This document shows, piece after piece, positions 1-10,207 of a stretch of DNA of 10,207 bases. The DNA comes from Pseudomonas sp. (GTDB lineage Bacteria; Pseudomonadota; Gammaproteobacteria; Pseudomonadales; Pseudomonadaceae), in contig JARDZH010000027.1 in the NCBI GenBank assembly GCA_029240955.1, positions 1 to 10,207 of the forward strand. Direction: 5' to 3'. Position numbers and translations under genes: made by a program. Numbering within the stretch: position 1 is the first letter of the stretch; the number at the start of each line of letters is the position of its first letter. Under the pieces are notes generated by a model. It had not been told where the DNA came from and did not search any database. It was given only the letters and a program-made list of their open reading frames with translations.

Positions 1-85
1 TACCTTGGCAGAGCTGGAAAATAACCTGTTCAATGCCACCCGTAGTATCCGGGTAATAGGTTTTGAAGAAGTGAAGAACGCGCAT
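1..85 (-). CDS. GT4-type glycosyltransferase, N-terminal fragment (divergent gene, runs off left edge)
   Basis: Read on the minus strand from the ATG at 85-83, the sequence encodes 28 residues beginning MRVLHFFKTYYPD and continuing TTGGIEQVIFQLCQG before the window ends. A short beta strand followed by a Gly-Gly-Ile-Glu turn is the classic start of GT-B fold, GT4-family glycosyltransferases. The wording resembles the WbpY/WbpZ-type rhamnosyltransferases of the Pseudomonas common polysaccharide antigen, but this is from memory and the specific assignment is uncertain. An in-frame ATG 13 codons upstream (124-122) is possible; 85 is preferred because MRVLHFF is the usual family start. The Shine-Dalgarno is weak (CGGG about 6 nt upstream). 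The gene is divergent from the secretion operon, and its acceptor and sugar cannot be judged from 28 residues. A plus-strand reading frame over the same bases (2-136) is taken to be its shadow. Confidence 0.75.
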   Translation of the reverse strand, partial: MRVLHFFKTYYPDTTGGIEQVIFQLCQG

Positions 86-368: not shown

Positions 369-2108
369 ATGCACAAGGTTCACGACAACAGCTTGCAGGC
401 TGCCTTAAAGGCTTGTAAGGGAAGTTTTATATCGGTTGGTATCTTCAGTCTTTTTGTTAACGCCTTGATGCTGGTTCCGACCTTCTACATGCTGCAGGTG
501 TACGGGCGGGTGGTGACCAGCGGCAGTATCACGACCCTGGTTATGTTGACCATCATCATGACCATTCTGTTGGTGACGCTTGGATCGCTGGAGTGGATCC
601 GCTCGCGCATCATGGTTCGAGTGAGCACCAAGCTGGACGTCCTGCTGAGCCGGGACGTTTATCGGGCAAGCTTCAAGCGCGCGCTGCAAAGCGGTGGTAT
701 GGATGCATCGGCCCAGCCCATGAACGATCTGACCGGGCTGCGTCAGTTCTTGACGGGCAACGGGGTATTCGCGTTTTTCGATGCGCCCTGGCTTCCTATA
801 TATATAGCCGTGATGTTCATGTTCCATCCGTATTACGGATGGGTTGCTATCGGCAGTGCCATCGTACTTCTGATTCTTGCTTACTTTAACGAGAAAGGGA
901 CCAGCAAAGCATTGGGCGATGCCAATAAAGAGAACATCGCCGCTACCCTGCAAACCACCAAGAATCTGCGCAATGCCGAAGTCATTGAATCAATGGGCAT
1001 GCTCAATACGCTGATCCAGCGCTGGAGCAACCGTCAGCGCAAGGTCTTGATTCTGCAGTCCCAGGCGAGCGACAAGGGCGGCATCTTCAGTGCCATTTCC
1101 AAGACCTTCCGGATGTTGATTCAGTCGCTGATTCTGGGGCTGGGTGCCTACCTGGCGGTCAATCATGAAATCAGCCCGGGTCTGGTGATTGCAGGTTCTA
1201 TTCTGCTGGGCCGAGCACTGGCGCCGATCGACATGATCATTGGCAGCTGGAAAGGGTTCATCGCGGCGCGCTCACAGTACGAACGCTTGAACGGCATCAT
1301 GGAAAACCTCAATGCTGAACCTCAGCGCATGGCATTGCCGGCACCGGTAGGCCACGTGGTCGTCGATAACCTGATCGTCGGTGCGCCGGGAGGCAAGACG
1401 CCTATCCTGCGCGGTATCAGCTTCGGCGTTCCAGCGGGTTCCATTGTCGGGATCATTGGCCCAAGCGCCTCCGGCAAATCGACCCTCGCACGGGCATTGA
1501 TGGGCGTTTGGGCGCCACAGCACGGCACCGTGCGTCTCGACGGCGCGGACATCAGCAACTGGGACAAGGAAGAGCTGGGCCCTTACCTGGGTTATCTGCC
1601 GCAGGACATTGAGCTGTTCGAAGGCAGCATCAGCGAAAACATCGCCCGTTTTGCAGACGTCGATGCCGAGAAGGTAGTGCTGGCTGCAAAAACAGCCGGT
1701 GTGCATGAAATGATCCTGCACCTGCCTAGTGGCTATGACACCGTTATTGGCAGCGAGGGCGTGAACCTCTCCGGCGGTCAGCGGCAGCGCATCGGCCTTG
1801 CGCGTGCAATCTACGGCTCACCTCGCCTGATTCTGCTCGACGAACCGAACTCCAACCTCGATGAAGTCGGCGAGCGCGCTCTGGCCTCGGCCCTTCAGCA
1901 GCTCAAAGCCAACGGGTCCACCGTTTTCGTCATTACCCACCGCACCACCATTCTTGCGCACCTCGATCGCCTGCTGGTGATGAGTGAAGGCGGAGTCAGC
2001 ATGTATGGTCCGCGCGATCAGGTGATGGAAGAACTCAACAAGCAACAATTGGCCGCTCAACAACGAGCGGCTCAGGTTGGCACAGGCACGGCTCCGGCCG
2101 GTGCCTGA
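369..2108 (+). CDS. Type I secretion ABC transporter (permease/ATPase, PrtD/RsaD/HasD type)
   Basis: This is the inner-membrane energy component of a type I secretion system; it recognises an unfolded substrate, usually by its C-terminus, and drives its export by ATP hydrolysis. The 579-aa length fits the PrtD/RsaD branch, which lacks the N-terminal peptidase-like domain of HlyB. Membrane segments are visible near residues 20-43 and 54-78, plus two central hydrophobic regions. The nucleotide-binding domain has Walker A GPSASGKST (364-372, Lys370), signature LSGGQ (467-471), Walker B LILLDEP (487-493, Asp491/Glu492) and the switch His524, so it appears catalytically intact. The ATG at 369 is chosen because AGGA lies at 361-364 and the family start follows; an upstream in-frame GTG (321) would add 16 atypical residues. 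It is the first gene of a tight operon with its two export partners. The nearby DUF4214 protein is the likely substrate by position. Confidence 0.95.
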   Translation: MHKVHDNSLQAALKACKGSFISVGIFSLFVNALMLVPTFYMLQVYGRVVTSGSITTLVMLTIIMTILLVTLGSLEWIRSRIMVRVSTKLDVLLSRDVYRASFKRALQSGGMDASAQPMNDLTGLRQFLTGNGVFAFFDAPWLPIYIAVMFMFHPYYGWVAIGSAIVLLILAYFNEKGTSKALGDANKENIAATLQTTKNLRNAEVIESMGMLNTLIQRWSNRQRKVLILQSQASDKGGIFSAISKTFRMLIQSLILGLGAYLAVNHEISPGLVIAGSILLGRALAPIDMIIGSWKGFIAARSQYERLNGIMENLNAEPQRMALPAPVGHVVVDNLIVGAPGGKTPILRGISFGVPAGSIVGIIGPSASGKSTLARALMGVWAPQHGTVRLDGADISNWDKEELGPYLGYLPQDIELFEGSISENIARFADVDAEKVVLAAKTAGVHEMILHLPSGYDTVIGSEGVNLSGGQRQRIGLARAIYGSPRLILLDEPNSNLDEVGERALASALQQLKANGSTVFVITHRTTILAHLDRLLVMSEGGVSMYGPRDQVMEELNKQQLAAQQRAAQVGTGTAPAGA

Positions 2109-2121
2109 CGGGAAAGTATCA

Positions 2122-3444
2122 ATGAATCAGAGACTCATCAGCAGCACTGATAACTTCGCGGACCTTCCGATGTCCGATCACAAGACCCGTCGCCTCGGCT
2201 ACGGGATCCTGATCGTCGTCTTCGGCATCTTCGGCACCTGGGCTGCAGTGGCACCGCTGGACGGCGCCGTTCACGCGCCCGGCGTGGTCACGGTTCAGAC
2301 GTATCGCAAGACGGTTCAGCATCTCGAAGGCGGCATCGTCAAAGACGTTTTGGCGCACGATGGCGACATCGTCAAGAAAGGTGACCCGCTGATCGTGCTC
2401 GACGACGCCCAGCTGCGCGCCGAGTACGACATGACGCATAACCAGTTCATCGCTGCCAAGGCCATGGAGGCCCGCTTGCTGGCCGAGCGTGACGACCTCC
2501 CTCAAATCGACTTCGGCACCATGGTCGAGGCCGAGAGCCCACGCGGTATCGAAGCGCGTAACGGTGAAACCCAGGTCTTCAACGCCCGTCGCGGCGCTCG
2601 TCTGGGCCAGATTTCCGTGCTGCAGGAACGCATTGGTCAGCTCAATGCCCAGATCAAAGGCACGGACGCCATGATCGGTACCAAGAACAATCTGGAAAAG
2701 TCCTACACCAGCGAAATTACCGAGCTGACCGACCTGTTGTCCCAAGGCTTCATCGACAAGCAGCGGATGCTAGAGCAGGAACGCAAGCTGGACATGCTCA
2801 AGTCTGAAGTGGCCGATCATCGTTCGAACATCACCAAAACGCGCCTGCAGATCAATGAAACCCAGCTCCAGATCCTGCAGATCAACAAGGACTTCAACTC
2901 CGAAGTCGCCCGCGACCTGGCTGAAGTCCAGACCAAGGCCTACGACCTGCAAGAGCGTACCGCTGCCCTGGCCGATCGCTTGAACCGGATCATCATCCGT
3001 GCTCCGGACGACGGCATGGTCATCGGCATGACCGTGCACACCATCGGCGGCGTCGTGCGCCAGGCCACACCATTGCTGGACATCGTACCTTCGGTGTCCG
3101 ATCTGGTCGTCGAGGCTCAGGTCGCTCCGAACGATATCAACCGCGTTGCGATCGGCAAGTTCGCGGACATGCGTTTCACCGCCTTCAACAGCGCGACCAC
3201 GCCGGTGATCCAGGGCGTCGTCACGTCGATCTCGGCAGACCGGTTGACCAACGAAAAGACTGGCATGCCGTACTACCTGGTACGCGCTAACGTCACGCCG
3301 GAAGGCTTGAAGAAACTGGGTGATCGCAAGCTGTTGGCCGGTATGCCGGCAGAAGTGCTGATCAACTCGGGCGAGCGCACCATGCTGCAGTACCTGTTGC
3401 AGCCTGCACGTAATGCCATTTCTGAATCGATGATCGAGGAGTGA
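2122..3444 (+). CDS. Type I secretion membrane-fusion (periplasmic adaptor) protein, HlyD/PrtE family
   Basis: This protein bridges the inner-membrane ABC transporter and the outer-membrane channel across the periplasm. The 440-aa protein has a short cytoplasmic N-terminus, one transmembrane helix (about 25-44) and a lipoyl/barrel-sandwich half-motif around 55-95 (containing HLEGGIVKDVLAHDGD). A long coiled-coil region follows (about 100-285, repeated L/Q/E heptads such as VLQERIGQLNAQI). The second lipoyl half (RAPDDGMV, from Arg293) and a beta-barrel C-terminal part ending LQPARNAISESMIEE complete it. This is the standard PrtE/HlyD order and length. The ATG at 2122 is chosen over an in-frame TTG at 2077 because GGGA at 2110-2113 gives an 8-nt spacing and the TTG would start inside the preceding gene. 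It lies 13 nt after the transporter stop, so co-transcription is expected. Confidence 0.94.
   Translation: MNQRLISSTDNFADLPMSDHKTRRLGYGILIVVFGIFGTWAAVAPLDGAVHAPGVVTVQTYRKTVQHLEGGIVKDVLAHDGDIVKKGDPLIVLDDAQLRAEYDMTHNQFIAAKAMEARLLAERDDLPQIDFGTMVEAESPRGIEARNGETQVFNARRGARLGQISVLQERIGQLNAQIKGTDAMIGTKNNLEKSYTSEITELTDLLSQGFIDKQRMLEQERKLDMLKSEVADHRSNITKTRLQINETQLQILQINKDFNSEVARDLAEVQTKAYDLQERTAALADRLNRIIIRAPDDGMVIGMTVHTIGGVVRQATPLLDIVPSVSDLVVEAQVAPNDINRVAIGKFADMRFTAFNSATTPVIQGVVTSISADRLTNEKTGMPYYLVRANVTPEGLKKLGDRKLLAGMPAEVLINSGERTMLQYLLQPARNAISESMIEE
3436..3441 (+). promoter_or_regulatory. Shine-Dalgarno GAGGAG deciding the GTG start of the outer-membrane channel gene
   Basis: GAGGAG sits inside the last codons of the preceding gene and lies 5 nt before the GTG at 3447. 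An alternative in-frame GTG at 3441-3443 overlaps this site, so 3447 is the better start. Position inside the upstream gene fits translational coupling. Confidence 0.7.
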
Positions 3445-3446
3445 CC

Positions 3447-5896
<2,450 letters not shown>

Positions 5897-5903
5897 TATC
5901 TGT

Positions 5904-5929
5904 TAGCTAGATAGCTATATATCTAGCTA
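5904..5929. repeat. AT-rich, CTAG-rich inverted repeat after gmd
   Basis: Arms TAGCTAGATA (5904-5913) and TATCTAGCTA (5920-5929) are perfect 10-bp complements around a 6-nt loop. Three CTAG tetranucleotides fall within this short stretch and its next base; CTAG is generally rare in enterobacterial and pseudomonad genomes. It begins 7 nt after the gmd stop and ends just before the terminator. It may be an extra mRNA 3'-end hairpin or a protein-binding site; no function is shown. Confidence 0.7.
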
Positions 5930-5930
5930 G

Positions 5931-5962
5931 AAAAGGGTCGCGTGAAAACGCGGCCCTTTTTT
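5931..5962 (+). terminator. Rho-independent terminator of the secretion-gmd operon
   Basis: Stem GGGTCGCGT (5935-5943) pairs with ACGCGGCCC (5948-5956) through nine pairs including one G-U, closed by a GAAA tetraloop, and is followed by six T (5957-5962). Four A (5931-5934) lie before the stem, so it could also work weakly on the other strand. It separates the operon from the downstream glycosyltransferase gene. Confidence 0.92.
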
Positions 5963-6038
5963 ATAGGCGTAAAACTTCACACGGCAAGAGCGACCCCGAC
6001 CGCCGGCAACCTGCTTATGATGCTTGGCATCCGGACGG

Positions 6039-6061
6039 GTTCGCGAGCAAGCTCGCTCTTA
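6039..6061. repeat. REP-type palindrome of fluorescens-group Pseudomonas
   Basis: The core GCGAGC-AA-GCTCGC (6043-6056), in the context GTTCGCGAGC...TCTTA, matches the well-known short extragenic repeat of fluorescens-group genomes. Only one copy is seen, so no paired REPIN is present here. It lies just before the large glycosyltransferase and would be translated if the gene began at the in-frame TTG at 6024. That argues for the later ATG at 6090. Confidence 0.8.
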
Positions 6062-6089
6062 CCGAGACACACTTCAAATTGGTCTAGCC

Positions 6090-9000
6090 ATGCATAACGA
6101 AACACAGGTCACCATCCACCAGTTCGCCATCAGTGTCAGCCACGGCGACGGCATCAGTAACGGCATGATGCTGACCCGCAAGCTGCTGCGTCTGGCCGGC
6201 ATCAAGTCCGATATCTACTGCATCCGGCCTTCAGACCAGATGGCGGGTGACGTGTTGTGCATGGACGATTACCTGCCGGGCAGCGCCGATGCGCTGCTGG
6301 TGCATCACGGCATTGGCAACCCGGTCGAATCCTGGCTACGCGACCTGCCGGAACGCAAATTCATGGTGTTCCACAACATCACGCCGGGCGAACTTTTTCC
6401 GCCCGACCACGCGATCCAGCCGATGCTCGCCCACGGTTGGGAGCAGGTCGACAGCTGGCGCCACTGGCTGACCGGCAGCATTGCCGACTCCCAGCAAAAC
6501 CTGCAGGAACTGCTCAAGCGCGGTTACGACGAACACAACACCACCGAAATTCCACTGCTGGTGGACCTGGACCGCATCCAGCCCCACGCGGTCAAGCGGC
6601 ACGATACCCCGCGTCCGTTCACCCTGCTGTTCGTGGGCCGGATCATGCCGCACAAAAACCAGCTGATGCTGGTAGAAGCCTTCGCGCAGCTGCTGCGCAA
6701 CACCCAGGTGCCGTTGCAGCTCTACATCGTTGGCGGCTTCACCGTTGCCGAGTACAAGGACCAGATCGAGCAGCGCATTCGCGAGCTGGGCATCGAAGCC
6801 TTCGTCAACCTCACCGGCAAGGTCGACGACGACACGCTCAACGCCCTGTATTGCCGCAGCGACCTGTTCGTGTCCTTGAGCAAGCACGAAGGCTTCGGCA
6901 TGCCGCTGATCGAAGCGATGGCCCACGGTCTGCCGGTGCTGGCGTATGACGCGCCGCACAGCAACGTGGTCCACACCCTGGGCACGGCCGGTCTGCTGCT
7001 GGACAATGCCGAACCTGTCGAGGTTGCGGCGACCATCGCCCAGATCATGGAAAACCCCGCACTGCGCCGCAGCATGAAACAGCGCGGTGCCGAGCGTATG
7101 CACGAGTTTGCCTACCAGCACCTTTACGATCGCCTGAGTGCCTTTCTGGCCCGGTTCGACATCCAGCTGCCGCACTTCAGCTTTCCGGTCGAGGCACCGC
7201 GCGCGGCCGTGGACTTCCGGGTCGAAGGGCCGTTCGACAGCACCTACAGCCTGGCGTTGGTCAATCGCGAACTCGCCAGGGCGCTCGCCGAACACGGCCA
7301 CAAGACCGCGCTGCGTGCCACGGAAGGTCCGGGCCCGATCCCTGTCGATCAAGCGTTTCTGCTCGACAACCCGGACTGCGCCCAACTGTGCGCCCGGGCC
7401 GAACAGCCTGCGCGTAACGTGCTGCGCCTGATGTACCCGCCACGGGTCACCGACATGCAGGGCGATCTGAACGTCATGTCCTGCTACGGCTGGGAAGAGT
7501 CTTGCCTGCCGCAAGCCTACTGCCATGATTTCAACCACCAGACGCACCTGATCACCAGCATGTCGAGCTGGGTCACCACCACCCTGCAAGACAACGGTGT
7601 CACCGCGCCGCTGGCCACGGTGGGGCTTGGGGCAGACCACATCCTCAAGGCCGACATCGACTTCAACAGCCTGCCGCCCATGCCGCAGACCACCGACCAG
7701 CGCCTCAAGCTGCTGCACGTGTCGTCCTGCTTTCCGCGCAAAGGCGTCGACGTATTGCTCAAGGCTTATAGTCAGGCGTTCACGGCCCAACAGCCGGTTG
7801 TGCTGATCATCAAGACCTTCCCCAACCCGCACCACAACATCCAGCAGCAGCTGGCCGACTGGCGTGCCGAGTTCCCGGACGCACCAGCTGTGGAGCTGAT
7901 CGAACAGGACCTGCCGGACTCAGCCCTGCGTGCGCTCTACACCCTGGCCGATGCGCTGGTCGCGCCGTCCCGCGGCGAAGGCTTCGGTCTGCCGCTGGCC
8001 GAAGCGATGCTGCACCGCTTGCCGGTGATCGTCACCGGTGCCGGTGGCCAGAGCAACTTCTGCACACCCGACACCGCCTGGCTGATCGACTACCGCTACG
8101 AGCGCGCCCGCACGCACCTGCAGGCTGCTGCGTCGGTCTGGTTCGAGCCGGATGCCGATCATTTGACCCGTCTGCTTCAGGCGTTTCATCAGGCCTGGAG
8201 CACGGGCGGGCTTGAAGCCATGACGGCTCCGCGCGTTGCGGCCGCTGAGGCCTTGATCCGCAGCCGCTTCACCTGGTCGGAAGTGGCCAAGGCCAGCGCC
8301 GAAGCCATTGACTGGGCCGGGCGTCAGCCCTTGCTGAAAAAAGCCCCGCGCCTGGGTTCGGTGACGTCCTGGAACAGCGCCTGCGGCATCGCCACCTACA
8401 GCACCAAATTGCTGCTGCCGGCGTTTGGTCTGGATTGCCGGATCTTTGCCAACGACGACGCCGTGCTCACCGCCGGTGATCAACCCAACATCGAGCGCTG
8501 CTGGACAGCGGGGGACCACGACTCGCTGGATCGCCTCAAGGCGGCCATCGAAGCGTCCGGCGTCGACACGCTGCTGCTGCAGTTCAACTTCTCGTTCTTC
8601 AACCTCAAGGCTTTTGCCGGGTTGCTGGACTGGGCTCATGGCCGGGGCATTCGCACGCTGGTGGTGTTCCACTCCACGGCCGACGTGAAGCACGGCGAAA
8701 CCCTCAAGTCGCTGCGCGACCTGCGCGAATCGCTGGCCCAGTCAGCGCGCCTGATGGTGCACAGCGTGGGCGACATGAACCGCCTCAAGGACTTCGGCCT
8801 GCGCGACAACCTGCTGATGTTCCCCCACGGCGTGATCGACACACCGCCGCCGGCACCTGGTCCGCTCCAGTTGGCCGCCAACCTCAAGGGCAAGACCATC
8901 ATTGCCAGCTATGGCTTTTTGCTCCCGCACAAGGGCATGCCGGAGCTGATCGAGGCTTTCGCGTTGCTAGCCCGCAAGGACCCGACGCTGCACCTGCTGC

Positions 9001-9470
9001 TGGTCAACGCGCAATACCCGGTCGCGGCATCGGCCGAGCTGGCCGAAACCTGCCGCGGGCGTATTCAGCAGGACGATCTCAAAGGGCGGGTGACGCTGAT
9101 TACCGACTACCTGACCGACGAGCAATCGCTGGCCTGGCTGGGCATGGCTGACGCCATTGTGTTCCCGTACCAGCACACGCAAGAGTCTTCGAGTGCCGCA
9201 GTGCGTTGGGGTTTGAGCACCGGTCGTCCGGTTTTCTGCACCCCGCTGGCCATCTTTGAAGACGTGGCGGATGCGGTCACCTTCCTGCCCGGCACTGATA
9301 GCGAAACAATGGCCTATGGTTTGCGTCAGAATCTGGACGCAGGCCCGAAATCATTGCAGGAAACCTGGCTCCGCAATCACGGGTGGACAACCGTTTCAGC
9401 GCGTTTGAGGAACATCCTCACGTCGCTCTCGGCAGAAATTCACGGAACTTTAGCCGACAAAAAAAAGTGA
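6090..9470 (+). CDS. Large multidomain glycosyltransferase with three tandem GT-B/GT4-like units
   Basis: This 1126-aa protein has no signal peptide or membrane helix and probably acts in the cytoplasm. Unit 1 (about 1-375) has VGRIMPHK (Arg184, Lys189) and EGFGMPLIE (Glu267/Glu275), the donor-binding pocket and E-X7-E motif of GT4 retaining enzymes. Unit 2 (about 380-735) has SSCFPRKG (Lys551) and EGFGLPLAE (Glu630/Glu638). Unit 3 (about 750-1126) opens with CGIATYS (765-771) and has YGFLLPHKG (941-949), but reads QESSSAAVRW, where the second Glu is replaced by Trp1040. Three-unit enzymes such as E. coli WbdA and S-layer glycan synthases build repeating polymers, so successive linkages by one protein are plausible; sugar and acceptor are unknown. 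The ATG at 6090 is chosen over an upstream TTG (6024), although no good Shine-Dalgarno precedes it. It lies downstream of a terminator, so it needs its own promoter or read-through. Confidence 0.9.
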   Translation: MHNETQVTIHQFAISVSHGDGISNGMMLTRKLLRLAGIKSDIYCIRPSDQMAGDVLCMDDYLPGSADALLVHHGIGNPVESWLRDLPERKFMVFHNITPGELFPPDHAIQPMLAHGWEQVDSWRHWLTGSIADSQQNLQELLKRGYDEHNTTEIPLLVDLDRIQPHAVKRHDTPRPFTLLFVGRIMPHKNQLMLVEAFAQLLRNTQVPLQLYIVGGFTVAEYKDQIEQRIRELGIEAFVNLTGKVDDDTLNALYCRSDLFVSLSKHEGFGMPLIEAMAHGLPVLAYDAPHSNVVHTLGTAGLLLDNAEPVEVAATIAQIMENPALRRSMKQRGAERMHEFAYQHLYDRLSAFLARFDIQLPHFSFPVEAPRAAVDFRVEGPFDSTYSLALVNRELARALAEHGHKTALRATEGPGPIPVDQAFLLDNPDCAQLCARAEQPARNVLRLMYPPRVTDMQGDLNVMSCYGWEESCLPQAYCHDFNHQTHLITSMSSWVTTTLQDNGVTAPLATVGLGADHILKADIDFNSLPPMPQTTDQRLKLLHVSSCFPRKGVDVLLKAYSQAFTAQQPVVLIIKTFPNPHHNIQQQLADWRAEFPDAPAVELIEQDLPDSALRALYTLADALVAPSRGEGFGLPLAEAMLHRLPVIVTGAGGQSNFCTPDTAWLIDYRYERARTHLQAAASVWFEPDADHLTRLLQAFHQAWSTGGLEAMTAPRVAAAEALIRSRFTWSEVAKASAEAIDWAGRQPLLKKAPRLGSVTSWNSACGIATYSTKLLLPAFGLDCRIFANDDAVLTAGDQPNIERCWTAGDHDSLDRLKAAIEASGVDTLLLQFNFSFFNLKAFAGLLDWAHGRGIRTLVVFHSTADVKHGETLKSLRDLRESLAQSARLMVHSVGDMNRLKDFGLRDNLLMFPHGVIDTPPPAPGPLQLAANLKGKTIIASYGFLLPHKGMPELIEAFALLARKDPTLHLLLVNAQYPVAASAELAETCRGRIQQDDLKGRVTLITDYLTDEQSLAWLGMADAIVFPYQHTQESSSAAVRWGLSTGRPVFCTPLAIFEDVADAVTFLPGTDSETMAYGLRQNLDAGPKSLQETWLRNHGWTTVSARLRNILTSLSAEIHGTLADKKK

Positions 9471-9482
9471 AATTTCCTACGG
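9469..9482. repeat. Copy 1 of a 14-bp direct repeat GAAATTTCCTACGG
   Basis: The 14 bases recur exactly at 9614-9627, 145 bp further on. This copy overlaps the stop codon of the large glycosyltransferase. The shorter inverted form GTAGGAAAT occurs at 260-268 upstream of the secretion operon. A regulator-binding site is possible, not shown. Confidence 0.6.
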
Positions 9483-9533
9483 GCTTATAGAAAATTTCTC
9501 ATGGACAATCACGAAATAGTTAGGCGACGGCTA

Positions 9534-9563
9534 TTGTTACGCCACTCTTTTGACATGTATGAT
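9534..9563 (+). promoter_or_regulatory. Candidate sigma-70 promoter for the DUF4214 leader
   Basis: TTGTTA (9534-9539) and TATGAT (9558-9563) are 18 nt apart and match the -35 and -10 consensus at 4/6 and 5/6. A perfect TTGACA at 9550-9555 also exists, but its best -10, TAGGAT (9576-9581), is 20 nt away. Either would give a 5' leader of roughly 175-195 nt containing the terminator-like hairpin. Confidence 0.4.
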
Positions 9564-9611
9564 CGGTGCGGTCTGTAGGATACGTCCCTGATACCTTTGA
9601 GAAAAAGTCTC

Positions 9612-9627
9612 AGGAAATTTCCTACGG
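9612..9627. repeat. Palindrome AGGAAATTTCCT with copy 2 of the 14-bp repeat
   Basis: AGGAAATTTCCT (9612-9623) is a perfect 12-bp palindrome. It overlaps the second copy of GAAATTTCCTACGG (9614-9627). It has the form of an operator for a dimeric regulator and lies about 50 nt downstream of the candidate promoter, but no regulator is identified. Confidence 0.6.
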
Positions 9628-9711
9628 CAGTCGGAATTATTTCCGACGCCCATAACGGGTGCCACGGCTATGACGGCCGTGGCGACAGGCTGAGCCGACG
9701 GGCTCTTTTTT
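9626..9711 (+). other. Structured RNA leader or small RNA ending in a terminator-like hairpin
   Basis: Three consecutive stem-loops are visible. The first (9626-9650) pairs GGC and GTCGGAA with TTCCGAC and GCC, with one bulged A and a TTAT loop. The second (9661-9683) pairs GCCACGGC with GCCGTGGC around 7 nt. The third (9692-9705) is followed by six T. The set lies just upstream of a gene with highly-expressed codon use. It could be an attenuating leader or an independent small RNA; I do not recognise a known riboswitch class. Confidence 0.5.
9692..9711 (+). terminator. Terminator-like hairpin upstream of the DUF4214 gene
   Basis: GAGCC (9692-9696) pairs with GGCTC (9701-9705) over a GACG loop and is followed by six T (9706-9711). 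The stem is short but G+C-rich. It lies 221 nt after the glycosyltransferase stop and 52 nt before the next ATG, with no promoter seen in between. It may end read-through from the glycosyltransferase gene, end a small RNA, or attenuate the DUF4214 transcript. Confidence 0.65.
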
Positions 9712-9729
9712 CCGAACGGAAGCCTGGGT

Positions 9730-9741
9730 GTCGATATCGAC
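9730..9741. repeat. Perfect 12-bp palindrome GTCGATATCGAC before the ribosome-binding site
   Basis: GTCGATATCGAC is self-complementary and ends 7 nt before the GGAG ribosome-binding site of the DUF4214 gene. It could be an operator or a site for homodimeric RNA or protein contacts; it may also be chance. Confidence 0.5.
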
Positions 9742-9763
9742 TCATATTGGAGATGAAAACGTA

Positions 9764-10207
9764 ATGGCTACTACTTCCGCACAAGTTCAACAACTGTATG
9801 TTGCTTACCTGGGCCGCGCTGCCGACAAGGCTGGTCTGGACTACTGGTTGAACGAACTGAACGGTTCCACTACTGCCCCTGCTTCCCTGACTCTGGAAAA
9901 CCTGCGCGCTAACTTCGTTAACGAGCAGGCAGAGTACCAAGACGCTTACGCTGGTCTGACTCGCAGCGAAACCGTTTCCAAGATCTACCTGCAACTGTTC
10001 GGCCGTCCAGCCGACGCTGCTGGCCTGGAATACTGGACCAATGGTGCTGGTGCTTCCGTCAATGCTGACCAGCTGCTGGTTGCTTTCGTAAACGGCGCTT
10101 CGGCGGCCGATGCTCAAGTCATCACTAACAAGGTTCTGGTTGCTGAGGTTTACACTTCGACTGCTGGTGCTAACTACGTTGCTGCTGACGCTAAATCTGT
10201 TATCGCC
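9764..10207 (+). CDS. DUF4214-domain protein, probable secreted surface protein (partial, runs off right edge)
   Basis: 148 codons are open to the window end with no stop. Two DUF4214 repeats about 63 residues apart are visible: QQLYVAYLGRAADKAGLDYW (9-28) and SKIYLQLFGRPADAAGLEYW (72-91). DUF4214 occurs in bacterial S-layer and other secreted, often type I-exported, proteins. There is no N-terminal signal peptide, which fits export by a C-terminal signal, though that end is outside the window. Ala, Val, Thr and Gly are mostly written GCT, GTT, ACT and GGT, unlike the GCC/GCG-rich neighbours; in Pseudomonas this is the pattern of abundant proteins. The ATG follows GGAG (9749-9752) by 11 nt and overlaps a three-codon ORF as TAATG. 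It is the best candidate substrate of the type I system at 369-4853, by position and lack of signal peptide. No RTX repeats are in the visible part. Confidence 0.88.
   Translation, partial: MATTSAQVQQLYVAYLGRAADKAGLDYWLNELNGSTTAPASLTLENLRANFVNEQAEYQDAYAGLTRSETVSKIYLQLFGRPADAAGLEYWTNGAGASVNADQLLVAFVNGASAADAQVITNKVLVAEVYTSTAGANYVAADAKSVIA

Follow-up and report, generated by a model that had tools for sequence, protein, structure and literature searches.

Surface layers (S-layers) whose proteins leave the cell by type I export are the closest described counterparts of the locus examined here, a set of genes in a 10,207-nucleotide stretch of Pseudomonas DNA (the window) that encodes a type I exporter, the GDP-mannose 4,6-dehydratase Gmd, a glycosyltransferase with three GT-B units (the triple glycosyltransferase) and a protein with tandem DUF4214 domains. 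The Sap S-layer proteins of Campylobacter fetus are exported by a type I system, as the title of a paper states. Homologues of sap remain silent until a rearrangement places them behind a single promoter. In Caulobacter, gmd1 shares an operon with perA, perB, two glycosyltransferase genes and rsaFa, and deletion of both gmd copies causes the S-layer to be shed (PMC5749776). A preliminary description of the window had likened it to the Caulobacter RsaA locus, and these data bear out the parallel. The Serratia marcescens protein SlaA is partly RsaA-like, type I exported and variable among strains (PMC3034196), and the Halomonas protein Halo4214 is a DUF4214 protein with a stretch of 88 residues (16-104) that has been aligned to the S-layer protein of Caulobacter and interpreted as an anchor (PMC11970703). 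NpdA and Slr4, from Beta- and Gammaproteobacteria, likewise form S-layers on Gram-negative cells and are tied to a secretion cluster, but that cluster is type II (PMC10765051). Kinship with NpdA was therefore set aside, on the basis of cluster type and not of sequence. Older S-layer reports from 'Pseudomonas' concern species since transferred to other genera (PMC10765051), and literature searches on type I export, O-antigen, plasmids and prophages gave no RsaA-type S-layer in present-day Pseudomonas among the matches listed.

A plasmid-borne lipopolysaccharide (LPS) locus of P. asturiensis CC1417/CC1524, with gmd, type I exporters and glycosyltransferases, is already in print, and the CC1524 plasmid is one of the loci compared below (L003). 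The passages of PMC12608077 that concern it describe this plasmid as LPS-modifying, with type I secretion genes and without a coat protein, and the main text of that article contains neither 'S-layer' nor 'surface layer'. The same source associates type I exporter genes in P. syringae LPS loci with tailocin sensitivity, and states that it is unknown what PrsD/PrsE do in class A P. syringae strains.

We consider it probable that the locus produces an abundant, acidic, Cys-free surface protein that is exported by the type I system, resembles RsaA at both ends and is held to the O-antigen specified by neighbouring genes. The machine is of a known kind, and the data suggest an RsaA-like coat variant in Pseudomonas whose coat protein is not in print for the CC1524 plasmid. 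The S-layer-like exported coat tied to a gmd-dependent glycan, as put forward in the preliminary description, gains support from gene linkage and from the Caulobacter gmd data. The locus also suggests a candidate substrate for the unexplained type I exporter genes in P. syringae LPS loci. As in the RsaA system, gmd and O-antigen genes here accompany a type I exporter, and the predicted protein is leaderless, acidic and Cys-free. This protein differs in its helical middle, in its length of about 600 amino acids versus 1026, in lacking repeats-in-toxin (RTX) sequences, in its strongly variable alleles and in its carriage on plasmids and prophages. SlaA, with 1002 amino acids, has RTX repeats and varies in its N-terminal region, which is the part conserved here, whereas Halo4214 has 1038 amino acids and a predicted lipase part.

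Gene content and conservation of the locus

Families were scored against curated cut-offs, and all six main genes lie on the + strand. The features of the window are as follows.

1..85, - strand: 5' end of a divergent GT4-family glycosyltransferase gene, cut by the window start (tblastn, residues 1-28 of a plasmid homologue, 93% identical)
369..2108, + strand: PrtD-type type I secretion ATP-binding cassette (ABC) transporter (TIGR01842, 757.5 bits, cut-off 510.2)
2119..3444, + strand: HlyD-type periplasmic adaptor (TIGR01843, 360.3 bits, cut-off 208.7)
3456..4853, + strand: TolC-type outer-membrane channel (TIGR01844, 248.8 bits, cut-off 225.2)
4850..5896, + strand: gmd, GDP-mannose 4,6-dehydratase (TIGR01472, 473.2 bits, cut-off 415); it shares 4 nucleotides with the end of tolC
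5935..5962, + strand: likely intrinsic terminator 3' of gmd, a hairpin and T run read from the sequence
6090..9470, + strand: glycosyltransferase with three GT-B units, 1126 amino acids (three Glycos_transf_1 stretches, 194 bits)
9534..9563, + strand: promoter-like TTGTTA-18-TATGAT, from alignments, conserved among the loci and also 5' of unlinked copies
9630..9763, + strand: structured mRNA leader with a conserved ribosome-site end, from fold and alignment (no Rfam family)
9764..10207, + strand: tandem-DUF4214 N-terminus of a predicted exported surface protein (PF13946, 54.9 bits, cut-off 23.2, two stretches)

These assignments confirm the six genes in one direction, including a complete three-part exporter, that were originally reported. 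The accompanying claim of a leaderless DUF4214 protein stands as regards the leader, which is absent, but the gene itself is cut by the window end, such that 148 codons are present where about 600 are expected (586-634 in relatives). The exporter genes and gmd probably form a single operon, because the gmd start (4850) lies within the tolC end (4853). A terminator scan near 5935..5962 listed a stem on the opposite strand as its sole entry. The triple glycosyltransferase of the window is 79-82% identical to three plasmid homologues, and the nearest plasmid match to the last 708 bases of the window is 77.5% identical.

There are 14 loci with the triple glycosyltransferase, located on five Pseudomonas plasmids (L001-L005), in seven members of the GTDB species set (L006-L012) and in genomes G132 and G153, and the counts that follow include only loci whose sequence extends to the side in question. 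Exporter genes are found 5' of gmd in 12/12 loci (L005 partial; L007 and L009 excluded). A DUF4214 gene is located directly 3' of the triple glycosyltransferase in 12 of 13 loci (L012 excluded), and an ABC-2 permease resembling Wzm comes next in 12/12 (L009 and L012 excluded). The same order is kept in these loci, and thus the six-gene arrangement is not due to chance. The exception is a P. putida plasmid (L004:13942-14514), which has lost the DUF4214 gene save for the leader and approximately the first 22 codons, and has kept the exporter, gmd, glycosyltransferase and permease genes.

Farther along, loci of sufficient length encode an MBOAT protein, glycosyltransferases, a second GDP-mannose-dehydratase-like protein, a methyltransferase and Wzt with its C-terminal domain. 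The Wzm and Wzt matches lie past the window end, in relatives (ABC2_membrane, 52 bits in L010; Wzt_C, 107.3 bits in L003). Because relatives continue into these O-antigen export genes, the window locus is, judged from gene order, the front part of an O-antigen cluster. With regard to rmd (GDP-D-rhamnose synthesis), the second protein of the relatives is GDP_Man_Dehyd-like, and of the 25 families shown no equivalog exceeds its cut-off. The O-antigen-cluster methyltransferase of L003 (24525-26078) gives a DUF4214 match of 19.9 bits, below the threshold of 23.2. The CC1524 plasmid pCC1524 also encodes a 2640-amino-acid DUF4214 protein and a second type I exporter (L053:1728-9650 and L053:22248-26633). 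Large tandem arrays of repetitive extragenic palindromic (REP)-like units occupy the gaps flanking the glycosyltransferase and coat genes of L003 (9428-10338 and 16861-18099), and in the window one short piece near 6040 is REP-like. In relatives, the tandem repeats that separate gmd from the glycosyltransferase gene resemble what we take to be ordinary Pseudomonas REP elements, and for this reason they were dropped as candidate recombination sites.

The distribution of the gene set was surveyed in 398 genomes of the genus to which G005 (L010, titled P. asturiensis) belongs, scoring per genome the best three first-look candidates for the DUF4214 family and the best two for the triple glycosyltransferase, with thresholds of E 1e-60 for the full-length family and E 1e-150 for the glycosyltransferase. 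These genomes are related, and the counts are therefore not probabilities. The triple glycosyltransferase is present in six genomes and the full-length DUF4214 family in seven, which are the same six and G335. There is no full-length family member at this threshold among the three candidates scored in each of the remaining 391 genomes. The carriers G002, G004 and G007 are outside these matches and were presumably not drawn. In a sample of 149 genomes with eight candidates scored, the full-length family occurs in five genomes, all of which have the triple glycosyltransferase, and two more have N-terminal-only matches.

Linkage of the full-length gene to the exporter and gmd holds in 7/7 carrier genomes. 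Thus, the co-occurrence check proposed in the preliminary description comes out in its favour for the full-length family, whereas the DUF4214 domain alone is common, with 9-20 matches in each of seven genomes. In G335 (L087:4070-19901), the exporter and gmd products are 75-89% identical to those of the window and a different O-antigen cassette lies downstream. On the same strand after gmd, there are a different Wzm (33%), a different Wzt (38%), a 1305-amino-acid protein, an acyltransferase and a 585-amino-acid DUF4214 protein (38%); no triple glycosyltransferase is present at the threshold used. The DUF4214 protein of L006 has 370 homologues among predicted proteins, and the source names of the best 120 of these are mostly Pseudomonas, with one Paucimonas lemoignei. 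A plasmid search by protein matched 61 records, five of them from Pseudomonas, and the non-Pseudomonas matches among the best 30 of the 61 cover only 20-28% of the query. Taken together, the gene set is rare and partly plasmid-borne.

Predicted coat protein and its expression

All ten DUF4214 proteins examined from these loci lack Cys and have isoelectric points of 4.1-4.6; no leader peptide is seen at their N-termini, which were read by eye. In the predicted structure, both the N-terminus and the C-terminus appear to resemble the fold of RsaA, and the middle is modelled as a helical bundle with no RsaA match. The RTX nonapeptide GGxGxD occurs once, in one of 14 sequences, and RTX repeats are judged absent, which is why the protein is not classed as an RsaA member. 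Some searches weigh against an RsaA-like protein or were uninformative: PDB searches by single sequence and by profile gave no RsaA match, the window fragment alone yielded a poor model (predicted local distance difference test score of 67.8), and its top Foldseek match was RsaA but with E 0.42 and tied with phycobilisome linkers. Overall, an S-layer-like surface protein is supported, and any lattice would be hypothetical.

A plausible mechanism can be outlined from gene content. The exporter would secrete the leaderless protein of about 600 amino acids by means of a C-terminal signal. Gmd would make the 6-deoxyhexose precursor of the O-antigen, which the triple glycosyltransferase and the products of the downstream Wzm/Wzt genes would build and export. 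The N-terminal tandem DUF4214 region, which is similar to the O-antigen-binding N-terminal domain of RsaA, may hold the protein to this O-antigen, and the mostly helical middle would be the exposed and variable part. The preliminary description allowed that the protein either carries or binds a glycan. Binding is the likelier of the two because the glycosyltransferase gene sits in a cluster with the Wzm/Wzt O-antigen genes, and glycosylation of the protein is not supported.

There is a conserved promoter-like TTGTTA-18-TATGAT, with some variation, together with a structured leader, within the 293-334 nucleotides 5' of the DUF4214 gene in 11 loci. The window as a whole holds three promoter-like sites, this one among them, versus 3.3 expected by chance, and the case for this site is therefore made from its conservation. 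The leader fold (to 9775) has a z-score of -4.81 that was reached in 0/200 shuffles. Its consensus fold, from 10 sequences, has an energy of -40.9 kcal/mol, with 4 of 34 pairs changed on both sides. A comparison with Rfam gave no family at the gathering score and one unrelated match with E 0.13. With a conserved promoter-like site and leader to itself, the DUF4214 gene is more than the last member of a single operon.

Codon adaptation was calculated with the long open reading frames of the rpsL region as reference, in place of curated genes, and with partial DUF4214 genes for the window and G132. The DUF4214 value exceeds that expected from the codon use of its neighbours for the same amino acids in 8/8 loci (z 6.3-11.5, 0/500 simulations each); gmd equals or slightly surpasses it in L006 and L008. 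The promoter-like site, structured leader and optimised codons together point to a protein that would be abundant.

Allele variability and alternative explanations

Loci that are almost identical otherwise have different DUF4214 alleles. Among the plasmids L001, L002 and L005, the flanking proteins compared are 98.5-100% identical (for one pair, PrtD only) and the DUF4214 proteins 42-48%, with 60-72% over residues 1-160, 33-37% in the central part and 38-43% over the final 130 residues. The corresponding values for flanks and DUF4214 protein are 98.2-100% and 57% for L003 versus L010, 99.5-100% and 55% for L003 versus L006, and 97.7-100% and 80% for L006 versus L010. DUF4214 identity is thus 42-57% in five of six near-identical locus pairs and 80% in the sixth. 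The blastn match between L002 and L001 stops approximately 200 codons into the DUF4214 gene and returns 33 nucleotides past its stop. Across the 78 pairs formed by 13 full proteins, identity averages 71% for the N-terminus, 35% for the middle and 47% for the C-terminus. The simplest reading of these alignments is allele replacement by recombination, which would probably exchange the gene from within its N-terminal part to the stop. The pattern known for Sap-type genes fits here, with a conserved N-terminus, divergence in the rest and second full-length copies in G003, G005 and G006.

Could this variability be a sampling artefact, or reflect different genes instead of alleles? Only six near-identical pairs were compared and the DUF4214 name spans many proteins, but position, leader and flanks are the same, the N-termini are similar (58-99% pairwise identity) and all ten reading frames are closed, and so we regard this explanation as very improbable. 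A far more serious possibility, contained within the reading of an exported and surface-bound coat, is that the protein forms no lattice and is an abundant adhesin or biofilm-matrix protein, not an S-layer. The unmatched helical middle, the absence of RTX repeats and the concentration of allelic variation in the middle would all suit such a protein. Its size of about 600 amino acids, its Cys-free, acidic and codon-optimised character and its apparently RsaA-like ends speak for an S-layer, and known S-layer proteins also vary, as the title of a paper on C. fetus indicates. We give the no-lattice version somewhat less than an even chance.

The adjacency of the glycosyltransferase and DUF4214 genes in 12 of 13 loci might instead mean that the enzyme glycosylates the exported protein. 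However, the exporter, gmd and DUF4214 genes are linked in G335 without a triple glycosyltransferase at the threshold, and the cluster contains Wzm/Wzt O-antigen export genes, which leaves this proposal with only a slight probability. It is somewhat less improbable, but still unlikely, that the exporter serves other substrates, such as the giant DUF4214 protein of pCC1524, and that the 600-amino-acid gene merely rides along on an LPS island. This plasmid does carry both the 2640-amino-acid protein and a second type I exporter. Yet in G003 and G132 the exporter of the locus is the sole PrtD-type system over the cut-off, and the full-length family is found only in genomes with the exporter and gmd. 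We favour a type I-exported coat held to the O-antigen.

Copies in and beside prophages

There are seven full-length copies unlinked to the locus. Three, in G003 (L033), G006 (L034) and G005 (L035), have no exporter genes in the available flanking DNA, and four are on IMG/VR contigs (L076-L079) whose available pieces hold no reference exporter genes; the prophage borders of these contigs are predictions of that collection. L034 and L076-L079 (5/5) are near a tape-measure gene that adjoins a phrog_6278 gene. In addition, a tail-fibre match occurs in L034 and an integrase lies on the opposite side in L077. L033 adjoins an integrase (phrog_1, 129.5 bits), and L035 has no clear phage neighbour among the five proteins scanned, with one weak terminase match. 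Six of the seven copies are thus in or beside prophages and resemble prophage-carried conversion genes (morons) in being accessory genes beside integrase or tail genes and, for L033, L034 and L077, in having a promoter-like site of their own.

This site and the end of the leader are found before all four unlinked copies with upstream DNA (L033, L034, L035 and L077), where the last 60 or so nucleotides of the leader are shared and its middle is not. In this respect the system differs from C. fetus Sap, since these copies are not promoterless cassettes. The viral contigs scanned gave no match to the triple glycosyltransferase, and the collection of phage isolates searched holds no full-length gene, with one match of 31% over the N-terminus.

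The locus allele of G003 (L008) and the unlinked allele of the same genome are 99%, 92% and 92% identical in the N-terminus, middle and C-terminus; this genome is titled a metagenome-assembled genome, in which strain mixing is possible. For the other nine loci, the best middle identity to any unlinked copy is 36-54%. The unlinked copies were rejected as general donors of locus alleles on the basis of these values.

Prophage-associated full-length copies may act as donors or as coat switches on lysogeny. A tentative and rather doubtful extension is that temperate phages and plasmids trade coat alleles, such that lysogeny supplies a new coat gene together with its promoter, the resident exporter and O-antigen of the lysogen display the new coat and recombination through the conserved leader and N-terminus brings the allele into the locus. 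If true, phages would deliver the coat, and it would act as a barrier that can be switched and that protects against other phages, tailocins or predators. Since nearly identical loci carry different alleles and prophages contain coat genes, a change of coat under pressure from phages is open to direct test. In L076 (2330-4132), the full-length coat gene is directly followed by the gene of a second, more distant DUF4214 protein of 600 amino acids, and this second gene lacks the leader that the others share.

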